DNA of 38,347 nt from positions 1 to 38,347 of the IMG/VR virus record IMGVR_UViG_3300009285_000650; one strand, 5' to 3'. The position numbers and the translations under genes were made by a program. The notes under the pieces were generated by a model. The model was not told where the DNA came from. It was given only the letters and a program-made list of their open reading frames with translations, and did no database searches. Numbering within the stretch: position 1 is the stretch's first letter; every line of letters starts with the position of its first letter. Below are positions 21,341 through 34,331 of the stretch, piece after piece. The DNA comes from a virus.

Positions 21341-22606
21341 TTATGCCCACTCCGGCTGGGCTTCTTGTTCCGACGCGGCCTCCGAGGCACCCCATTGACT
21401 GGCGGGATGCTTGGAGGCTTTCGACTTCCAGTGCTGCCATGCCAGCGCGTGGGCACAAACGCAATCGTCATGCATCCCCTCTGGCGCGGAGTACCTCACT
21501 CCGGTCCTCGTGTATTCGAACTCGAAGCTTTCCATCTCGGCGCGGTGCGGTCCCTCGAGAACCGACGTGGCCCGTTCCTGTATCCCGTTCGCCAGGCCCT
21601 CCATCAGCTGCTGCTTGGACTTGACGTGGAACACATAACCTTCGAAGTTGCCGCCGTAACCCTTGCCGCGCTGCAAATCTTCAAGCACCGGGTCGCCCAC
21701 GCCCGTCGCGTCCACAAGTGTCGGGACCGCACCGCACACCCGGCGGATAGTCTCCTTCGCCTCCATCCAGGGCTTGAGGAACTGCTCGAAGAAGCACACC
21801 ATCCCCAGATGGTCGAGCCCTATAATGACGGTCGGGTCCACGTGCTTGCCCAAGTCCACGCCGTAACAGACGGCGGGATACTCCGAGATCTCCTTGACGC
21901 ACGCCGCGATGTGCCCGATGCCGAACGGATTACCGCCGTCGTCGCTGGGCACGCCCATGTAGAGCTCATTGAAGATCGCCTCGGGCAAGACGCGCTTCGC
22001 GTCCTCGACATCCTTGGCGTCCAATACTCCCGCTTCGACGGCGTCCTTGCTGAGTATCTTGGCGTAGTGGCACTCGGCGAGCGGGCCCTTGAGCGCCATC
22101 TCCTGCTCGGCCATGCGGCATAGGTTGTAGTGCCAGTTCTTGCGTCCCTTGATGTTTGCAACCCCGCGCACCTTGCCCTTAGTCTTGGTCAATGTCGTCC
22201 GCGCCGCCCACCAAGCCTGCACTCGCATGCGGGTGCATTCGTCCAGTACCATCGACCCCACGTCTTCGCCATAAAGGTTGTCGGGCTTCTCGGCAGACTT
22301 GTACCACATGACGTGCTTGTTGATGAGGGTGAGGGTCATGTCGGAGTCGTTGGGGCGGTACATCTTTGGAGGTAATCCCGCTTTGGTCCGGTCGTAGGCG
22401 ATGCGGGCCTGGGCGTAGACTGGAGCAACCCACCAGTGATTGGTGTATGGAGAGCCGACGAGGGCTTGCTCGGTCAGCCACGCCATCCCAGTCACGGTCT
22501 TCCCACACTTCGTTGTCCCCTCGACCCAACCTTCGCGCTTGTCGTGGAAGAAGGCATAGAGCTGATAGGACTTGAGAGGAGGCCGTTCGTAGGTAGCGTT
22601 CCTCAC
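21341..22606 (-). CDS. terL: Terminase large subunit
   Basis: This 421-residue protein is the packaging motor. The ATPase has Walker A GTTKCGKT at residues 30-37 and Walker B SMVLDE at 118-123. The RNase H-like nuclease follows, with YGVDLGK (Asp251), LVDATGVGDP (Asp299) and GMHDDCVCAHALA (Asp380/381), the three acidic positions of TerL nucleases. ATG 22606 overlaps the small-subunit stop (ATGA). All key residues are intact, so the enzyme should cut and package DNA. Confidence 0.95.
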   Translation of the reverse strand: MRNATYERPPLKSYQLYAFFHDKREGWVEGTTKCGKTVTGMAWLTEQALVGSPYTNHWWVAPVYAQARIAYDRTKAGLPPKMYRPNDSDMTLTLINKHVMWYKSAEKPDNLYGEDVGSMVLDECTRMRVQAWWAARTTLTKTKGKVRGVANIKGRKNWHYNLCRMAEQEMALKGPLAECHYAKILSKDAVEAGVLDAKDVEDAKRVLPEAIFNELYMGVPSDDGGNPFGIGHIAACVKEISEYPAVCYGVDLGKHVDPTVIIGLDHLGMVCFFEQFLKPWMEAKETIRRVCGAVPTLVDATGVGDPVLEDLQRGKGYGGNFEGYVFHVKSKQQLMEGLANGIQERATSVLEGPHRAEMESFEFEYTRTGVRYSAPEGMHDDCVCAHALAWQHWKSKASKHPASQWGASEAASEQEAQPEWA

Positions 22607-22989
22607 TCGCCACTCCGCGACTGGCCGATATCCAGCGTGAAACGAATCGGCTCGTCTCCTTCGTCACCACCAACCAAAGGTTGAGGAACTTTGCCGAGGA
22701 TGCGCTCTGAGAGCGAAGCGAGAGCCTTGCTGTCTCCCGACATTGCGGTTTCGACCCAAGCAAGGGCGACGCGCTGTGCGCCCGTGGGATTGCGACCGAA
22801 CGATTGCTTGGCAGCCTCGAATGGCTGGGTGAGGAGAACAACCAAAGCCGAGCGGAAGGCGTCCTTCACTTCGACCCCAAGGAGATTGTTCACGATACCT
22901 TTAGGACGCCCATTTGGGTTGGGACTAACGCCGGGCTTGAATTGCCCTTTGTTCTTGCCCTTCGCCTTCGGCTTTGGTTTGAGCTTCAT
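22603..22989 (-). CDS. Small terminase-like protein (DUF5681-type N-terminus)
   Basis: A 128-residue protein just upstream of terL. The N-terminus is Lys/Pro-rich followed by GQFKPGVSPNPNGRPKGIV, the motif of DUF5681 proteins that often precede terL. The middle is helical (VKDAFRSALVVLL, AQRVALAWVETAMSGDSKAL). Position and motif suggest the DNA-recognition subunit of the packaging complex. Some DUF5681 proteins have no tested role, so the name is an inference. Confidence 0.7.
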   Translation of the reverse strand: MKLKPKPKAKGKNKGQFKPGVSPNPNGRPKGIVNNLLGVEVKDAFRSALVVLLTQPFEAAKQSFGRNPTGAQRVALAWVETAMSGDSKALASLSERILGKVPQPLVGGDEGDEPIRFTLDIGQSRSGE

Positions 22990-23011
22990 GGCCTGTTATG
23001 GCCTGTTTTTA

Positions 23012-23338
23012 TCAGGCTCTCCTGATCCCGCCTGTGAGGATATCGCGCAACGAACGTTTGCCATTGCTTTGGCGCATCTCCTGAGCGACGTGCTCCTGAG
23101 CGGCCATTGTCTGCGCGATCTTGCAATAGGTCATGTAGATCTGGAACTTGCATGAGTCGATCCAACGTTTTGCGCCTTCGTAGTCAAGACGATCGAGACG
23201 GAAGCCGATCCAGAACGAATTCGTCATCCGATCGTAGTGCATCACCGGCTTCTGGTCGGTGGGCGGGAATGCGTACTTTGCCTCGGCTTCCTGCGAGGGT
23301 CCGGCGAGTTGCGACTGGGACTTCTCTTGGTTCTCCAA
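23012..23338 (-). CDS. First late-operon protein, unknown function
   Basis: The frame is open upstream to 23473, but an intrinsic terminator lies at 23404-23432, so a start after it is preferred: TTG 23338 with GGAGG 5 bases upstream, giving 108 residues beginning MENQEKSQSQLAG. A Gln/Ser/Pro-rich N-terminus precedes a folded part (about 40-85) with FWIGFRLDRLDYEGAKRWID. The end is basic (NGKRSLRDILTGGIRRA). Family not recognised. It precedes the terminase genes by 22 bases and could assist packaging. Confidence 0.6.
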   Translation of the reverse strand: MENQEKSQSQLAGPSQEAEAKYAFPPTDQKPVMHYDRMTNSFWIGFRLDRLDYEGAKRWIDSCKFQIYMTYCKIAQTMAAQEHVAQEMRQSNGKRSLRDILTGGIRRA

Positions 23339-23403
23339 TGTGTCCTCCGGTACGGTCAGCGCGCCAGGGGGAACGCGATGGCCTTTGTCGTGCTGAAGCA
23401 AAT

Positions 23404-23432
23404 AAAAAGCCCCCGGTGTTTCACCGGAGGCT
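23404..23432 (-). terminator. Intrinsic terminator at the head of the late operon
   Basis: On the minus strand AGCCTCCGGTG and CACCGGGGGCT form an 11-bp stem (one T:G wobble) with an AAA loop, followed by TTTTTATTTG. It lies 66 bases upstream of the first late gene. This is where lambda places tR' between the late promoter and the late genes, which suggests antitermination or attenuation control. Confidence 0.85.
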
Positions 23433-23480
23433 AGGCAGGCTTGCTGAGGGCGTGCCGAGATCGTGCTGGTCATATTTCAT
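23421..23480 (-). CDS. Possible 19-residue leader peptide
   Basis: ATG 23480, with GAGGGAG about 6 bases upstream, opens MKYDQHDLGTPSASLPSLR, and the TGA lies inside the loop side of the terminator hairpin. Such placement would let translation influence the upstream inverted repeat and the terminator. Chance is a real alternative for so short a frame. Confidence 0.35.
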   Translation of the reverse strand: MKYDQHDLGTPSASLPSLR

Positions 23481-23498
23481 CCAGCACTCCCTCAGCAA
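23441..23498 (-). promoter_or_regulatory. Two-part inverted repeat in the late leader
   Basis: TTGCTGAGGG (23441-23450) pairs with CCCTCAGCAA (23489-23498), and inside it GTGCTGG (23463-23469) pairs with CCAGCAC (23481-23487). The result is a long hairpin with an asymmetric internal loop, about 10 bases before the terminator stem. All 17 pairs are perfect, which is unlikely by chance. Confidence 0.7.
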
Positions 23499-23540
23499 TA
23501 CTAGTCTAGGTCATGGTGTGGTTTCTGTCCATAGAAAAGT

Positions 23541-23560
23541 TGTCCGATTCTGTCCGATTC
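23541..23560 (-). promoter_or_regulatory. Tandem 10-bp direct repeat, possible activator site
   Basis: Two perfect adjacent copies of GAATCGGACA (minus strand), with a third partial GGACA at 23526-23530. One helical turn apart, they lie about 45 bases upstream of the leader hairpin, in the only plausible promoter space for the late operon. No sigma-70 -35/-10 pair of good quality is seen nearby. Confidence 0.45.
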
Positions 23561-23576
23561 TCGTCGACAATACCAA

Positions 23577-23804
23577 TTATCTTGGGATGGTTATTTGGAA
23601 GCGTTTAGCCCACAAATATATTGTCGATCTAGAAATTGGGCACTTTCTCATCCGAAGCTTTAGACGGAACTCCTGGCGCACCATGCGCAGCGCCGCCTTA
23701 CGGCAAGGAGTCTCGCGCATGCTTTCAACGAATCGCTCAAGGATGCTTTTCTGAAGGGCAGGATCGAACATTGTTATTTTCGCGCTCGCGTCATAGAGCA
23801 TCAT
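23577..23804 (-). CDS. Small basic HTH-like protein
   Basis: A 75-residue basic protein; a later ATG at 23771 would give 64 residues. The C-terminal half (CRKAALRMVRQEF ... CPISRSTIYLWAKRFQIT) has the spacing of a helix-turn-helix of the transposase/resolvase or terminase type, with SRSTIYLWAKRF as the recognition helix. It is the last early gene and sits next to the late leader, the place of late regulators such as lambda Q. A role in late activation is therefore plausible but not shown. Confidence 0.5.
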   Translation of the reverse strand: MMLYDASAKITMFDPALQKSILERFVESMRETPCRKAALRMVRQEFRLKLRMRKCPISRSTIYLWAKRFQITIPR

Positions 23805-27648: not shown

Positions 27649-28734
27649 TCATTTGGACTCCGTGTTAAAAAACGCCTTGAACATATCCGCTCCGTAAGCC
27701 CCCGCCGTGATCTTGATTATTCCTGCTACCGTGATCTTCTCCGGAGTCTGGCGCTGATTCATCCACGCTCTAACCCCTGGCTCACATGCCCCAGTTATGG
27801 TTCTGTATGCCCGGATCGCGTCCCGCTTCGTTACTTCTAGGTCCAGCTTCCACGCCTTAAATTCCGTCGTGTCGCGATTGCCTATCTTGTACATCAAGCC
27901 GTCGCGGGCCTCGGACAAAGTCTTTCCGTGCGAGAACGCCTCTCCGTCGGTGACGAGGTAAGATACCTTGGTCTGACCGCAAACAATAACTCGGGAAACT
28001 GGTCCGCGCTGTGACACGATACGCGCCAGGATACCGTCGGCAAACGAGAAACCGGCAGCAGCGAATGCCGACAGCAGCATTGCTCGGCAACGATTCGGTG
28101 CTTCTGTGTCGTTTGACTTTACGCCGGACCAATCGCCACTGGCGTCGATGGAGCCGCCCACCGAGGTCAGCTTCGGGAACGCAGACTTCGTGTCCGCGCC
28201 ACTGGCGTAGATGTAGCCGCCCACCGAGGTCAGCTTCGGGAACGCAGACTTCGTGTCCGCGCCCCTGGCGTAGATGGAGCCGCCCACCGAGGTCAGCTTC
28301 GGGAACGCAAACTTCGTGTCCGCGCCACTGGCGTCGATGGAGCCGCCCACCGAGGTCAGCTTCGGGAACGCAAACTTCGTGTCCGCGCCACTGGCGTAGA
28401 TGTAGCCGCCCACCGAGGTCAGCTTCGGGAACGCAGACTTCGTGTCCGCGCCCCTGGCGTAGATGGAGCCGCCCACCGAGGTCAGCTTCGGGAACGCAGA
28501 CTTCGTGTCCGCGCCACTGGCGTCGATGGAGCCGCCCACCGAGGTCAGCTTCGGGAACGCAGACTTCGTGTCCGCGCCCCTGGCGTCGATGGAGCCGCCC
28601 ACCTTTTTAAGATTTGGGAACAACTCTTTTTTATACTCTACAGCGGAAAGATTTCCTGTTATCTCGGTGTAATCGTAAACCTGGCCGGCATTGGCCACCA
28701 AGTCCCCTGTAAAGATATTCTTCTTGTTTTTCAT
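27649..28734 (-). CDS. Tandem-repeat (LRR-like) protein
   Basis: A 361-residue protein. Residues about 40-200 hold one diverged and seven near-identical 21-residue units (AFPKLTSVGGSIDASGADTKS type) with regular Leu/Val/Gly spacing, which should form a solenoid like leucine-rich or beta-helix repeats. Similar repeats (L-SVGG-L-I) are found in phage and plasmid proteins that share this C-terminal domain, here about 225-361, with KVSYLVTDGEAFSHGKTLSE, GNRDTTEFKAWKLD and RTITGACEPGVRAWM. Function is unknown to me; a binding or recognition surface is likely. It has no signal peptide, so acts inside the cell. A stop lies 39 bases before the next start. Confidence 0.75.
   Translation of the reverse strand: MKNKKNIFTGDLVANAGQVYDYTEITGNLSAVEYKKELFPNLKKVGGSIDARGADTKSAFPKLTSVGGSIDASGADTKSAFPKLTSVGGSIYARGADTKSAFPKLTSVGGYIYASGADTKFAFPKLTSVGGSIDASGADTKFAFPKLTSVGGSIYARGADTKSAFPKLTSVGGYIYASGADTKSAFPKLTSVGGSIDASGDWSGVKSNDTEAPNRCRAMLLSAFAAAGFSFADGILARIVSQRGPVSRVIVCGQTKVSYLVTDGEAFSHGKTLSEARDGLMYKIGNRDTTEFKAWKLDLEVTKRDAIRAYRTITGACEPGVRAWMNQRQTPEKITVAGIIKITAGAYGADMFKAFFNTESK
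28141..28603 (-). repeat. 63-bp tandem repeat array with 189-bp higher-order repeat
   Basis: Copies begin (plus strand GGCGT landmark) at 28141, 28204, 28267, 28330, 28393, 28456, 28519 and 28582, exactly 63 bp apart. Units are identical except at four single-base positions, all changing the residue: Asp/Tyr, Ser/Tyr, Arg/Ser and Ser/Phe. In coding order the types run SID-AS, SIY-AR, YIY-AS, then the same three again, then SID-AS, so the last expansion copied a three-unit block. Confidence 0.95.
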
Positions 28735-28748
28735 TTACTTTCCCTCCG

Positions 28749-29375
28749 TCAGTGATTTTTATTTGGCCCCGTCCCGCCGTTCAGCGCAGCGTCATGTTGT
28801 TTCCGCAGTGACCGCTTCAATCCTTTTACATCTGGGCGACTGTGGCCGCTTTCCACAATCTCTCTGGCCATTTTCCGGAATGAGTTGACGCGGGTCCTTA
28901 CTGAGTGTACGTTCATCTTCAATTTCCGCGCTGCGAAAATTAGATTGTTTTTAGTCTGTGAATCTGCCATTACCATGAATATCTCTAAGTCACTGTTCAT
29001 GCTCGACAATAACAAGGCAAGCGTCTCTCTGAGCACTAGCCTATGCGATGGACATTCTAAATTGAGATCGCGCATAGGGACATTGATACGGTCTAACAAA
29101 GTTTCATCAGAGTTTTCGTCCATTGAGCTCTCTATGCTTACGGACGGACACAACCTTTCACGTCGTGCCATCTTTCTCACTTGGCTCTTGATCGCCCACA
29201 GGATGTTCTGTTTGATGCAGACGGGGGCATTTGTCCAGGCTTCTCCTTGGTGCCGCCTTAACTTTTCAAATACAGCTGTAACGACGTCCGCTCCTTCTTG
29301 CTCCGAATCTAGCAGTCCGAGCAGGTAGGCATTACGAGTGGCGAAATCAAGGTAATCATCCAGGTTATCTATCAT
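28749..29375 (-). CDS. Sigma-factor-like DNA-binding protein
   Basis: A 208-residue protein. Residues about 5-75 are helical with VFEKLRRHQGEAWTNAPVCI and ILWAIKSQVRKMARRER, resembling sigma region 2. Residues about 115-170 (LALLLSSMNSDLEIFMVMAD ... KLKMNVHSVRTRVNSFRKMA) resemble region 4, where a helix-turn-helix ends in S-RTRV---RK-A. The overall layout matches extracytoplasmic-function-like sigma factors that phages use to redirect RNA polymerase. The region 2 -10 motif is not clear, so a plain HTH regulator is the alternative. Its start overlaps the previous stop by 4 bases. Confidence 0.5.
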   Translation of the reverse strand: MIDNLDDYLDFATRNAYLLGLLDSEQEGADVVTAVFEKLRRHQGEAWTNAPVCIKQNILWAIKSQVRKMARRERLCPSVSIESSMDENSDETLLDRINVPMRDLNLECPSHRLVLRETLALLLSSMNSDLEIFMVMADSQTKNNLIFAARKLKMNVHSVRTRVNSFRKMAREIVESGHSRPDVKGLKRSLRKQHDAALNGGTGPNKNH

Positions 29376-30949: not shown

Positions 30950-31647
30950 TGCTTTGAGTCAGCCACTAATTTTTCGTATGTGTCTATTATTTTAGGACCT
31001 TTGTTATTGTAATTATTTCTCTCCCAAGTCCTAATTGCTGCCTGCCAGTCCTTCATCTTTGTTTTCCCAAGCATCCAACCTCTAGCCTCGTAATGGTCAA
31101 TAAAATTATTCGGGTCTATCCCGTTATTTCTTCCAATACAATAAGCTGTTACTAATTCAATTTTTGGAGGTATAATTTCCCTTTCTTTCCTTTCTTTAAC
31201 TGTCTTTAAATGTCTTTCTCCATATAGGCGTTCAGTGGGCTGAACGCTTCCGTTCAGTGGGCTGAACGCTTCCGTTCGGTGGGCTGAACGCTTCCGTTCA
31301 GTGGGCTGAACGCTTTTTGATTGATTCGTGCGTTCAGTGGGCTGAACGCTTGACCATTTTTCGTAGTCTTTGTTTAAATACAATCTGCCTGATTCATCTT
31401 TTATTATAACTTCATTGTCTATAAGAACTTGCATTGCAAGATGAACGCTTCCTATTGGCATTGAAAGTTCCTTTGATGCTTTCCTAAATGACCATTCTTT
31501 AATAAATTTTCTGTTCCATCCATATGAAGATCTAATGACCCATAGCGCAAATCGTAGGCCATTACCAGAAAATGGGTGCCTAACAATCGCGTCAAGCAAC
31601 TCATTAGATATTCTTGTATGCCCATTTTCTAGTTGAGGTGAAGCCAT
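30943..31647 (-). CDS. Replication initiator, phage O-like
   Basis: A 234-residue protein. The N-terminal 100 residues match phage replication protein O: MASPQLENGHTRISNELLDA, then LRFALWVIRSSYGWNRK and a winged-helix (FRKASKELSMPIGSVHLAMQ). Residues about 104-140 encode the iteron array and read as SVQPTER, RSAHRTEA, FSPLNG. The C-terminal part (NNFIDHYEARGWMLGKTKMK ... WQAAIRTWERN) is the helicase-contact domain common to DnaD/O-like initiators. No Shine-Dalgarno precedes ATG 31647; a T6 tract ends 3 bases before it. Binds its own iterons and recruits the helicase encoded next. Confidence 0.85.
   Translation of the reverse strand: MASPQLENGHTRISNELLDAIVRHPFSGNGLRFALWVIRSSYGWNRKFIKEWSFRKASKELSMPIGSVHLAMQVLIDNEVIIKDESGRLYLNKDYEKWSSVQPTERTNQSKSVQPTERKRSAHRTEAFSPLNGSVQPTERLYGERHLKTVKERKEREIIPPKIELVTAYCIGRNNGIDPNNFIDHYEARGWMLGKTKMKDWQAAIRTWERNNYNNKGPKIIDTYEKLVADSKQC
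31228..31349. other. ori: Replication origin: five iterons inside the initiator gene
   Basis: Five copies of a dyad, consensus CGTTCAGTGGGCTGAACGC (8-bp arms GCGTTCAG/CTGAACGC with TGGG between at the best copy), lie at 31229-31247, 31251-31269, 31273-31291, 31295-31313 and 31331-31349. Four are exactly 22 bp apart; the fifth is 36 bp away. Copy 3 carries one change (CGTTCGG). An AT-rich, pyrimidine-tract region at about 31130-31226 would be the unwinding element. This copies the lambda layout, ori within O. Confidence 0.88.
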
Positions 31648-31650
31648 CTT

Positions 31651-31677
31651 AAAAAAGGCCCGCGCCCCTTTGGCGGG
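31651..31677 (-). terminator. Terminator abutting the initiator start codon
   Basis: On the minus strand CCCGC (31677-31673) pairs with GCGGG (31663-31659), then CC and T6 (31656-31651); the ATG follows after AAG. The same GCGCGGG (31665-31659) can instead pair with an upstream CCCGCGC (31712-31706). A U-tract right before a start codon, with no ribosome site between, suggests regulated readthrough. Confidence 0.7.
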
Positions 31678-31680
31678 TTG

Positions 31681-31752
31681 CCTGCGAGAGCGACCAACAA
31701 TTGGAGCGCGGGTTAGATTTGGTATTCATTGTTGGTCATCATCTCTCGCAGG
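31681..31752 (-). promoter_or_regulatory. Nested inverted repeat in the initiator leader
   Basis: CCTGCGAGAG (31681-31690) pairs with CTCTCGCAGG (31743-31752), and inside it ACCAACAA (31693-31700) pairs with TTGTTGGT (31729-31736). The loop holds CCCGCGC (as minus strand, 31712-31706), which is complementary to GCGCGGG of the terminator. The two alternative folds are the parts expected of an attenuator. Confidence 0.7.
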
Positions 31753-31766: not shown

Positions 31767-31795
31767 ATATTAAATTAATGTTTCGATGATGTCAA
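31767..31795 (-). promoter_or_regulatory. Sigma-70-like promoter for the replication operon
   Basis: TTGACA (31795-31790), a 17-base spacer, and TAATAT (31772-31767): a perfect -35, a 4-of-6 -10 and ideal spacing. Predicted start is near 31760. It is the only good promoter before the initiator-helicase operon and sits in the 193-base gap between genes. Confidence 0.75.
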
Positions 31796-33509: not shown

Positions 33510-34166
33510 TCAGATGGGCCGGACGTGGAATTTAACGCCGTCAACCTTAACCGTGTCGTGCGTCGATCTGGCCTGTTGCCCGAGCCTGATGGTATCCCAA
33601 CACAGATAGGCGCGAGCGTTTATGATCTGCTGATTCGTCATGCGCTCTATCGGGATTGGCGTAGCCATCCACGTTTCCGGGATGCGCGTCTGGACCTTGG
33701 GGATCGTGCGGGCCAGGATAACCGGAGCTGCCTGCACCGGGGCCTGTAGTATGGCCTCGGCCTGGGCCTTGTCGCCGGCCTTCTCGGCCTCTGCGGCTGC
33801 GGCGATTGCGGCGTCCTCGGCGGCTTTGTCGGATAGGTCCTGGAGGCGCTTCTCCTCCGCCTGGCGGGTGGATTCCTGCTCCAACTGATAGACCCGGATT
33901 TTCTTCTTGTAAACGTCGCGTGTCTCGGTGATGAGGTCGGTGACTGCCTTCTTCTCTGCGACGGCGGCTTTGTGCCCCTGGTGCCATCGCTTGATATTGG
34001 GGTCGTACTTCTCATTGGCCTGTTTCTCGATCTCCTTGAGTTCTACGCAGGCTATGTCTGCCCGTTGAAGGTCGGCGTCAGTGGTGATGCAGAATGACTT
34101 AGCGGCCTCAAGAGCCGTCTTGGCCCTGGTTGCTTCTATAGCTGTTTCTACTATTTCTGTTTCCAT
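33510..34166 (-). CDS. Coiled-coil early protein
   Basis: A 218-residue protein with CGGAGATAAAAC before ATG. Residues about 20-140 are a long helix rich in Ala, Glu and Lys (ADIACVELKEIEKQANEKYD, EEKRLQDLSDKAAEDAAIAA). The C-terminal 55 residues are compact, with MTNQQIINARAYLCWDTIRL and KVDGVKFHVRPI. Proteins of this form are frequent near phage annealase genes, and some are thought to help recombination; no domain is certain here. An intrinsic terminator lies 46 bases upstream of its start. Confidence 0.6.
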   Translation of the reverse strand: METEIVETAIEATRAKTALEAAKSFCITTDADLQRADIACVELKEIEKQANEKYDPNIKRWHQGHKAAVAEKKAVTDLITETRDVYKKKIRVYQLEQESTRQAEEKRLQDLSDKAAEDAAIAAAAEAEKAGDKAQAEAILQAPVQAAPVILARTIPKVQTRIPETWMATPIPIERMTNQQIINARAYLCWDTIRLGQQARSTHDTVKVDGVKFHVRPI

Positions 34167-34211: not shown

Positions 34212-34266
34212 AAAAAGACCTCCGGGCAAGCGGTTTGTTGTTGTGGACAGCAGACCGGCCCGGAGG
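34212..34266 (-). terminator. Long-loop intrinsic terminator upstream of the coiled-coil gene
   Basis: CCTCCGGGC (34219-34227) and GCCCGGAGG (34258-34266) form a 9-bp stem; inside, CGGT and ACCG can extend it. On the minus strand TC and T5 follow (34216-34212). It separates the small HTH gene from the coiled-coil gene. Confidence 0.75.
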
Positions 34267-34331
34267 CAAGATGGAATAAAAGAACCGCCGAACGATCGGG
34301 GGGTATCCCTTTGACAAAACCGCGATAAGAC

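Follow-up and report, generated by a model that had tools for sequence, protein, structure and literature searches.

A promoter-proximal RNA hairpin at the late operon of an uncultivated phage as a candidate control element shared with other phage leaders

In phage lambda, the late operon is transcribed from the promoter pR', which is followed by a short leader and a promoter-proximal terminator, tR', and is under the control of Q. Known antitermination systems that rely solely or mainly on RNA are few, and the phage example considered here is the put RNAs of HK022, whose action runs through the zinc-binding domain of the RNA polymerase β' subunit. These RNAs, encoded immediately behind the early promoters or in their vicinity, need no phage protein to act on the polymerase, and consist of two promoter-proximal stem-loops of ~70 nt (PMC9378689).

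We analyzed a 38,347-nt stretch of phage DNA (the window), whose late operon is headed by a leader comparable to both systems. As at pR'-tR', there is a constitutive-looking late-operon promoter, a short leader, a promoter-proximal intrinsic terminator, as in Q-dependent late antitermination, and a small, putatively DNA-binding gene just upstream. However, the conserved element here is an RNA hairpin, P1, and not a DNA binding site; neither the spacer nor the repeats are conserved, no homologue of Q was found, and comparison of the window with its relative G001 revealed no conserved DNA binding element of the Q type in the late promoter. The likeness to putL and putR lies in a structured RNA of ~60–90 nt just past the promoter, followed by terminators, and in an element common to the operons of one phage. 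The position close to the promoter is the same, whereas the P1 leaders contain one bipartite hairpin of 56–87 nt instead of two stem-loops, also occur at the late operon, and have an antitermination activity that is putative. Sequence similarity to put was rejected because local alignments to putL and putR, located in HK022 by mutual similarity and not by annotation, were no better than those of shuffles. A third likeness is to attenuators, in that the antiterminator-like P1 and the terminator P2 of the non-late leaders compete for folding. The differences are the interleaved A-B-A'-B' strands, the local terminator outside P1 in the late leaders, and the lack of a known sensor.

The late leader and its counterpart in G001

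All the late-leader features lie on the minus strand of the window, in the 5'-to-3' order tandem 10-mers, −35, 17-nt spacer, −10, five bases, P1, and terminator. The earlier note saw no sigma-70 promoter, but a sigma-70-like one, TGGACA-17-TAGACT, was found at 23531–23503, with the −35 at 23526..23531 and the −10 at 23503..23508. On its own score, this promoter is not above chance in the window; G001 has TTGACA-17-TAGACT at the same place, with the identical −10 and a better −35. The start site is predicted at ~23497–23495. The 5' arm of P1, TGCTGAGGG (23489..23497), begins at the predicted start, 5 nt past the −10, and pairs with the 3' arm, CCCTCAGCA (23442..23450), the whole P1 spanning 23497–23442. 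Inside this 9-bp outer stem, an inner stem is formed by GCTGG (23481..23485, kept in G001) and its partner at 23454..23458, and the big apical loop carries the conserved motif ATGACCA (23467..23473), with an in-frame ATG common to the window and G001. The intrinsic terminator (23403..23432), composed of an 11-bp stem, an AAA loop, and U5, lies ~9 nt downstream of P1 in both late copies and has equal position and length in G001. The late leader folds with a z of −6.0, and none of 200 shuffles was as stable; in 1912 scanning windows on both strands, the most strongly structured places are this leader, the O-gene repeats, and the replication leader. No terminator-breaking alternative fold was found for it.

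The tandem 10-mers (two copies of GAATCGGACA, 23541..23561, minus strand), detected by TRF upstream of the −35, are phage-specific. Two period-10 arrays are present in the genome and none in 10 shuffles; a second perfect tandem 10-mer is located at 22988–23007, directly ahead of the DUF5681 gene. The 19-codon ORF starts with the ATG at 23480, and its TGA falls inside the terminator loop. The 10-mers, this ORF, the two-part inverted repeat, and the strong terminator described in the earlier note were confirmed, all on the minus strand. The late-module alignment with G001 contains neither the 10-mers nor the ATG of the ORF. Since both are missing while the promoter, P1, and terminator persist, the conserved module, as read from this alignment, is the promoter, P1, and terminator, without the 10-mers or the ORF. 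The repeats and stems had been expected in close relatives, and in G001 this was borne out for the stems, along with the promoter and terminator, and not for the 10-mers.

G001 (IMGVR_UViG_3300009296_000007) was reached via the helicase gene. Its early region is 99.4–100% identical to that of the window over several kb, whereas no relationship is seen for most late genes or for the genes immediately preceding the late promoter. The late module aligns without gaps from the −35 through the terminator, with the −10, P1, inner stem, ATGACCA, and 3' arm kept, and the flanks outside it show 15–35% identity per 20-nt block. Within the module, the promoter spacer differs, and the terminator differs in sequence with its stem kept, three pairs having changed on both sides and one pair on one side. 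In the late operon of G001 (L021, 10374–11861), a long hydrophobic protein is encoded right behind the small terminase gene; by eye, it looks similar to an O-antigen polymerase or ligase, and it has no PHROG match. Both phages also carry 63-nt repeats within one gene (window, 28071–28684; L021, 5641–6474), which encodes 361 aa in the window and 277 aa in G001 and differs in copy number, in surrounding DNA that is >99% identical.

The first late gene (23012..23338, minus strand) has a TTG start with GGAGG upstream and encodes 108 aa with no assigned function. The DUF5681 protein in the position of the terminase small subunit (22603..22989) and the terminase large subunit (21341..22606) are encoded on the same strand. 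Directly upstream of the late promoter is the gene for a 75-aa possible HTH protein (23577..23804, minus strand). Of the two phage-encoded regulators proposed in the earlier note, this small HTH protein is a weak match with no homologue in the phage records searched, and no such gene is seen beside the late promoter of G001. The other, a sigma-like protein of 208 aa (28749–29375), has a weak SigH-like match (E 7e-4) and is also present in G001. Among the proteins scanned near the module, none matched an antiterminator in PHROG, Pfam, or NCBIfam, a search that a novel protein could escape.

P1 hairpins at other operon heads

At least five further phage contigs carry P1 hairpins at operon heads, early operons among them. 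The early leader of G001 was noticed by reading around a strong promoter; on the minus strand, ahead of the early genes, it reads TTGACA-16-TACAAT-N5-TGCTTAGGGACA...TGTCCCTAAGCA. The window contig stops ~800 bases before the corresponding site, so this copy is unobservable in the phage of the window. A scan of the viral collection for the promoter plus TGCTNAGGG gave 37 stretches, two of them the G001 sites. The exact 3' arm was present in two further stretches, G002 (= L146) and G003 (= L157), and by chance, two such arms in the 35 promoter-plus-arm matches would be expected with a probability of ~6e-5. G003 has a second P1 copy on the opposite strand with its own promoter. In L163, for which only the 5' side was used in selection, P1 is 16 bp long and includes G-U pairs in its 3' arm; L029, found by architecture alone, has the relaxed variant arm TGCTTACAGGCA, spaced identically from the −10. 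P1 begins 5 nt past the −10 in the G001 early leader, G002, both copies of G003, and L163.

In eight P1 sequences, 6 of the 12 pairs had changed on both sides, and none of 500 shuffles reached the covariation score. The percentage of paired positions is inflated by members selected by 9-nt arm pairing; unselected pairing is seen in extension pairs 10–12 of G002 and G003 and in the 3' arm of L163. The arms were aligned separately because MAFFT misaligned one 3' arm. A looser architecture scan, which gave 1–4 matches per shuffle, was replaced by a stricter scored scan, and this yielded five non-redundant matches (L138 among them) versus 0, 0, 2, and 0 in shuffles. The phage-wide scheme of one design suggested in the earlier note gains from the P1 copies at the G001 early operon and in G002, G003, L163, and L029 and from the covariation; the 10-mers and ORF of that design are not conserved.

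Other searches defined the range of the element. The first hairpin pattern, applied to viral and bacterial collections, had one real match, G001, with the others in apparent coding regions, and the P1 pattern matched eight of 398 genomes of one phylum, which is about the expectation, none of them convincing. No Rfam family exceeded the gathering threshold, a permissive search gave only chance-level matches, and BLAST of the leaders against phage records returned only chance fragments. The terminase-based relatives (L002–L020) are distant, those inspected lacking the module, and a primase-polymerase query found no relative. P1-like arms before a possible cell-wall gene of a bacterial genome (L172, 1501–1580) have extension pairs that misfit and are probably due to chance.

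In the non-late copies, the P1 loop contains one of the two terminator arms and the second comes directly behind P1, so the helices are interleaved. This strand order, A-B-A'-B', was found in G001 early, G002, G003, L029, and the replication leader of the window. The interleaved terminator duplex has 22 bp in G002, 18 bp in G003-R, and 12 bp in G001 early, and the terminator arms usually end in or precede U-rich sequence. None of 1000 shuffled loops gave a duplex energy as good in G002 or G003-R, versus 127 of 1000 in G001 early, which is not unusual. Plain folding favours the terminator structure in these three leaders, and in them synthesis of the last terminator strand comes after P1 is complete.

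The replication (O) operon of the window has the promoter TTGACA-17-TAATAT (31767..31795, minus strand), followed on the same strand by a P1 (CCTGCGAGAG/CTCTCGCAGG) with an inner stem and loop (31681..31752). Strand B in the loop, CCCGCGCTCC (31703–31712), and strand B', GGGGCGCGGG, with CC and U6 behind it (31651..31668), form an interleaved duplex of 10 bp plus U6 ahead of the O gene, which starts at 31647, and none of 2000 shuffled loops was as good. Because its P1 sequence and its distance from the −10 differ from those of the late P1, this leader is counted as architecture only; judged by its strands, it has the same architecture as the non-late copies and is not a proven family member. 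The common architecture of the late and replication leaders claimed in the earlier note is upheld, and does not extend to the P1 sequence or to the tandem 10-mers, which TRF did not find in the replication leader. An AUGACCA motif common to both leaders was not significant (P ~0.09), and the idea that all O-gene leaders are structured this way was rejected, most of the 80 O relatives being without it.

Unrelated long or Y-shaped structured leaders were observed upstream of the O-like gene in L029, L033, L036, and L043; a U-run ends those of L029, L036, and L043, directly before the gene in the last two. The O-like gene of the window contains four 22-nt iterons, each with an inverted repeat (31229–31351), which are likely the replication origin, as in lambda.

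Proposed control of the late operon

We propose, with a probability of roughly 0.6, that the late operon is controlled after initiation, by promoter-proximal termination governed by P1. The promoter, P1, terminator, conservation, covariation, and recurrence are sequence-based; from them we infer termination itself, its government by P1, and the route used. Host RNA polymerase would initiate at the sigma-70-like promoter, at ~23497, and the 5'-terminal P1 hairpin would be made at once, with the intrinsic terminator ~9 nt behind it. By default, most transcripts would stop near 23403, giving an RNA of ~95 nt, and the late genes would be expressed when the terminator is overridden, with P1 deciding between termination and read-through. 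A promoter with a terminator within a hundred bases points to regulated read-through, and P1 is the likely recognition or control element because it is kept in both layouts while the terminator sequence and layout vary. The earlier note's reading as a whole is partly supported and its observation partly confirmed.

Two routes can be envisaged. P1 may recruit or modify RNA polymerase in a put- or nut-like manner, or it may compete kinetically with the terminator where a terminator arm sits in the P1 loop. Recruitment appears to fit the late module better, because the late P1 is kept although the terminator is entirely outside it. We favour an RNA element that would allow the polymerase to resist terminators; for the non-late copies, the main alternative is kinetic attenuation. 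A single mechanism for late and non-late leaders is an assumption, as their terminator layouts differ. An early-encoded shared factor or the host polymerase would explain the same P1 beside unrelated late regions.

Ordinary attenuation, in which P1 as an antiterminator delays terminator folding and is tuned through the binding of a protein, a ribosome, or an RNA, is an improbable account of the whole. The interleaved strands of the non-late and replication leaders suggest it, and in the non-late leaders P1 and the terminator are competing structures that exclude each other in unknotted folding. Yet the terminator strand of the late leader is not sequestered: both late leaders have a local terminator beyond the reach of P1, and P1 is nevertheless conserved. 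Marginally less probable is a Q-like arrangement, in which a phage protein such as the 75-aa HTH protein binds the tandem 10-mers on DNA and renders the polymerase terminator-resistant, with P1 secondary. The putative DNA-binding gene and the direct repeats are placed where Q and its binding element sit, and in phage 21 the late-promoter DNA site to which Q binds is a direct repeat (PMC6606751). This arrangement is opposed by the absence of the 10-mers from G001, the unconserved spacer, and the lack of homologues of the 75-aa protein, and the element that recurs is P1, not the DNA repeats.

It is quite unlikely that the terminator merely ends the early operon, with the late promoter weak or unused and P1 protecting the RNA 5' end or giving a stable ~95-nt RNA; past the last early gene, this is the sole strong terminator before the late genes are reached, and stable RNAs typically have such a shape, with a 5' hairpin and a terminator, but the fixed P1–promoter distance at several operon heads and the conservation of the promoter would be left unexplained. 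Leader-peptide control coupled to translation from the ATG at 23473 or 23480 is very improbable, because, although both late leaders have an ATGACC start and similar codons (MTxxxSARPQQA), G001 lacks the 19-codon ATG, ribosome-binding sites are weak, and the common residues fall in the P1 3' arm, where pairing alone can explain them. Of the two modes raised in the earlier note, antitermination is strengthened as a candidate, and translation-sensitive termination is weak, with just an in-frame ATGACC start common to the two late leaders and no good Shine-Dalgarno sequence in G001.

Returning to P1 as an RNA element acting on the polymerase, the P1 leader looks like an apparently so far undescribed RNA switch that turns phage operons on. 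More tentatively, it may represent an RNA family that is new and has no relation to HK022 put; its 5'-terminal hairpin, TGCTNAGGG...CCCTNAGCA at ~+1, would act on the host polymerase and take it past terminators in the early and late operons of several unrelated phages. A literature search on comparable phage leaders found nothing close, which is weak evidence of novelty given its incomplete coverage. With its covariation and its fixed position at the transcription start of early and late leaders in several phages, such a hairpin would add another RNA-centred system to those known. P1 is small enough for tests with purified polymerase, and it offers a sequence handle for locating operon heads in uncultivated phages.

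Elsewhere in the window, with no promoter recognised, a large-loop hairpin followed by a U-tract is located at 34222–34268 (minus strand), ahead of the gene at 34166.
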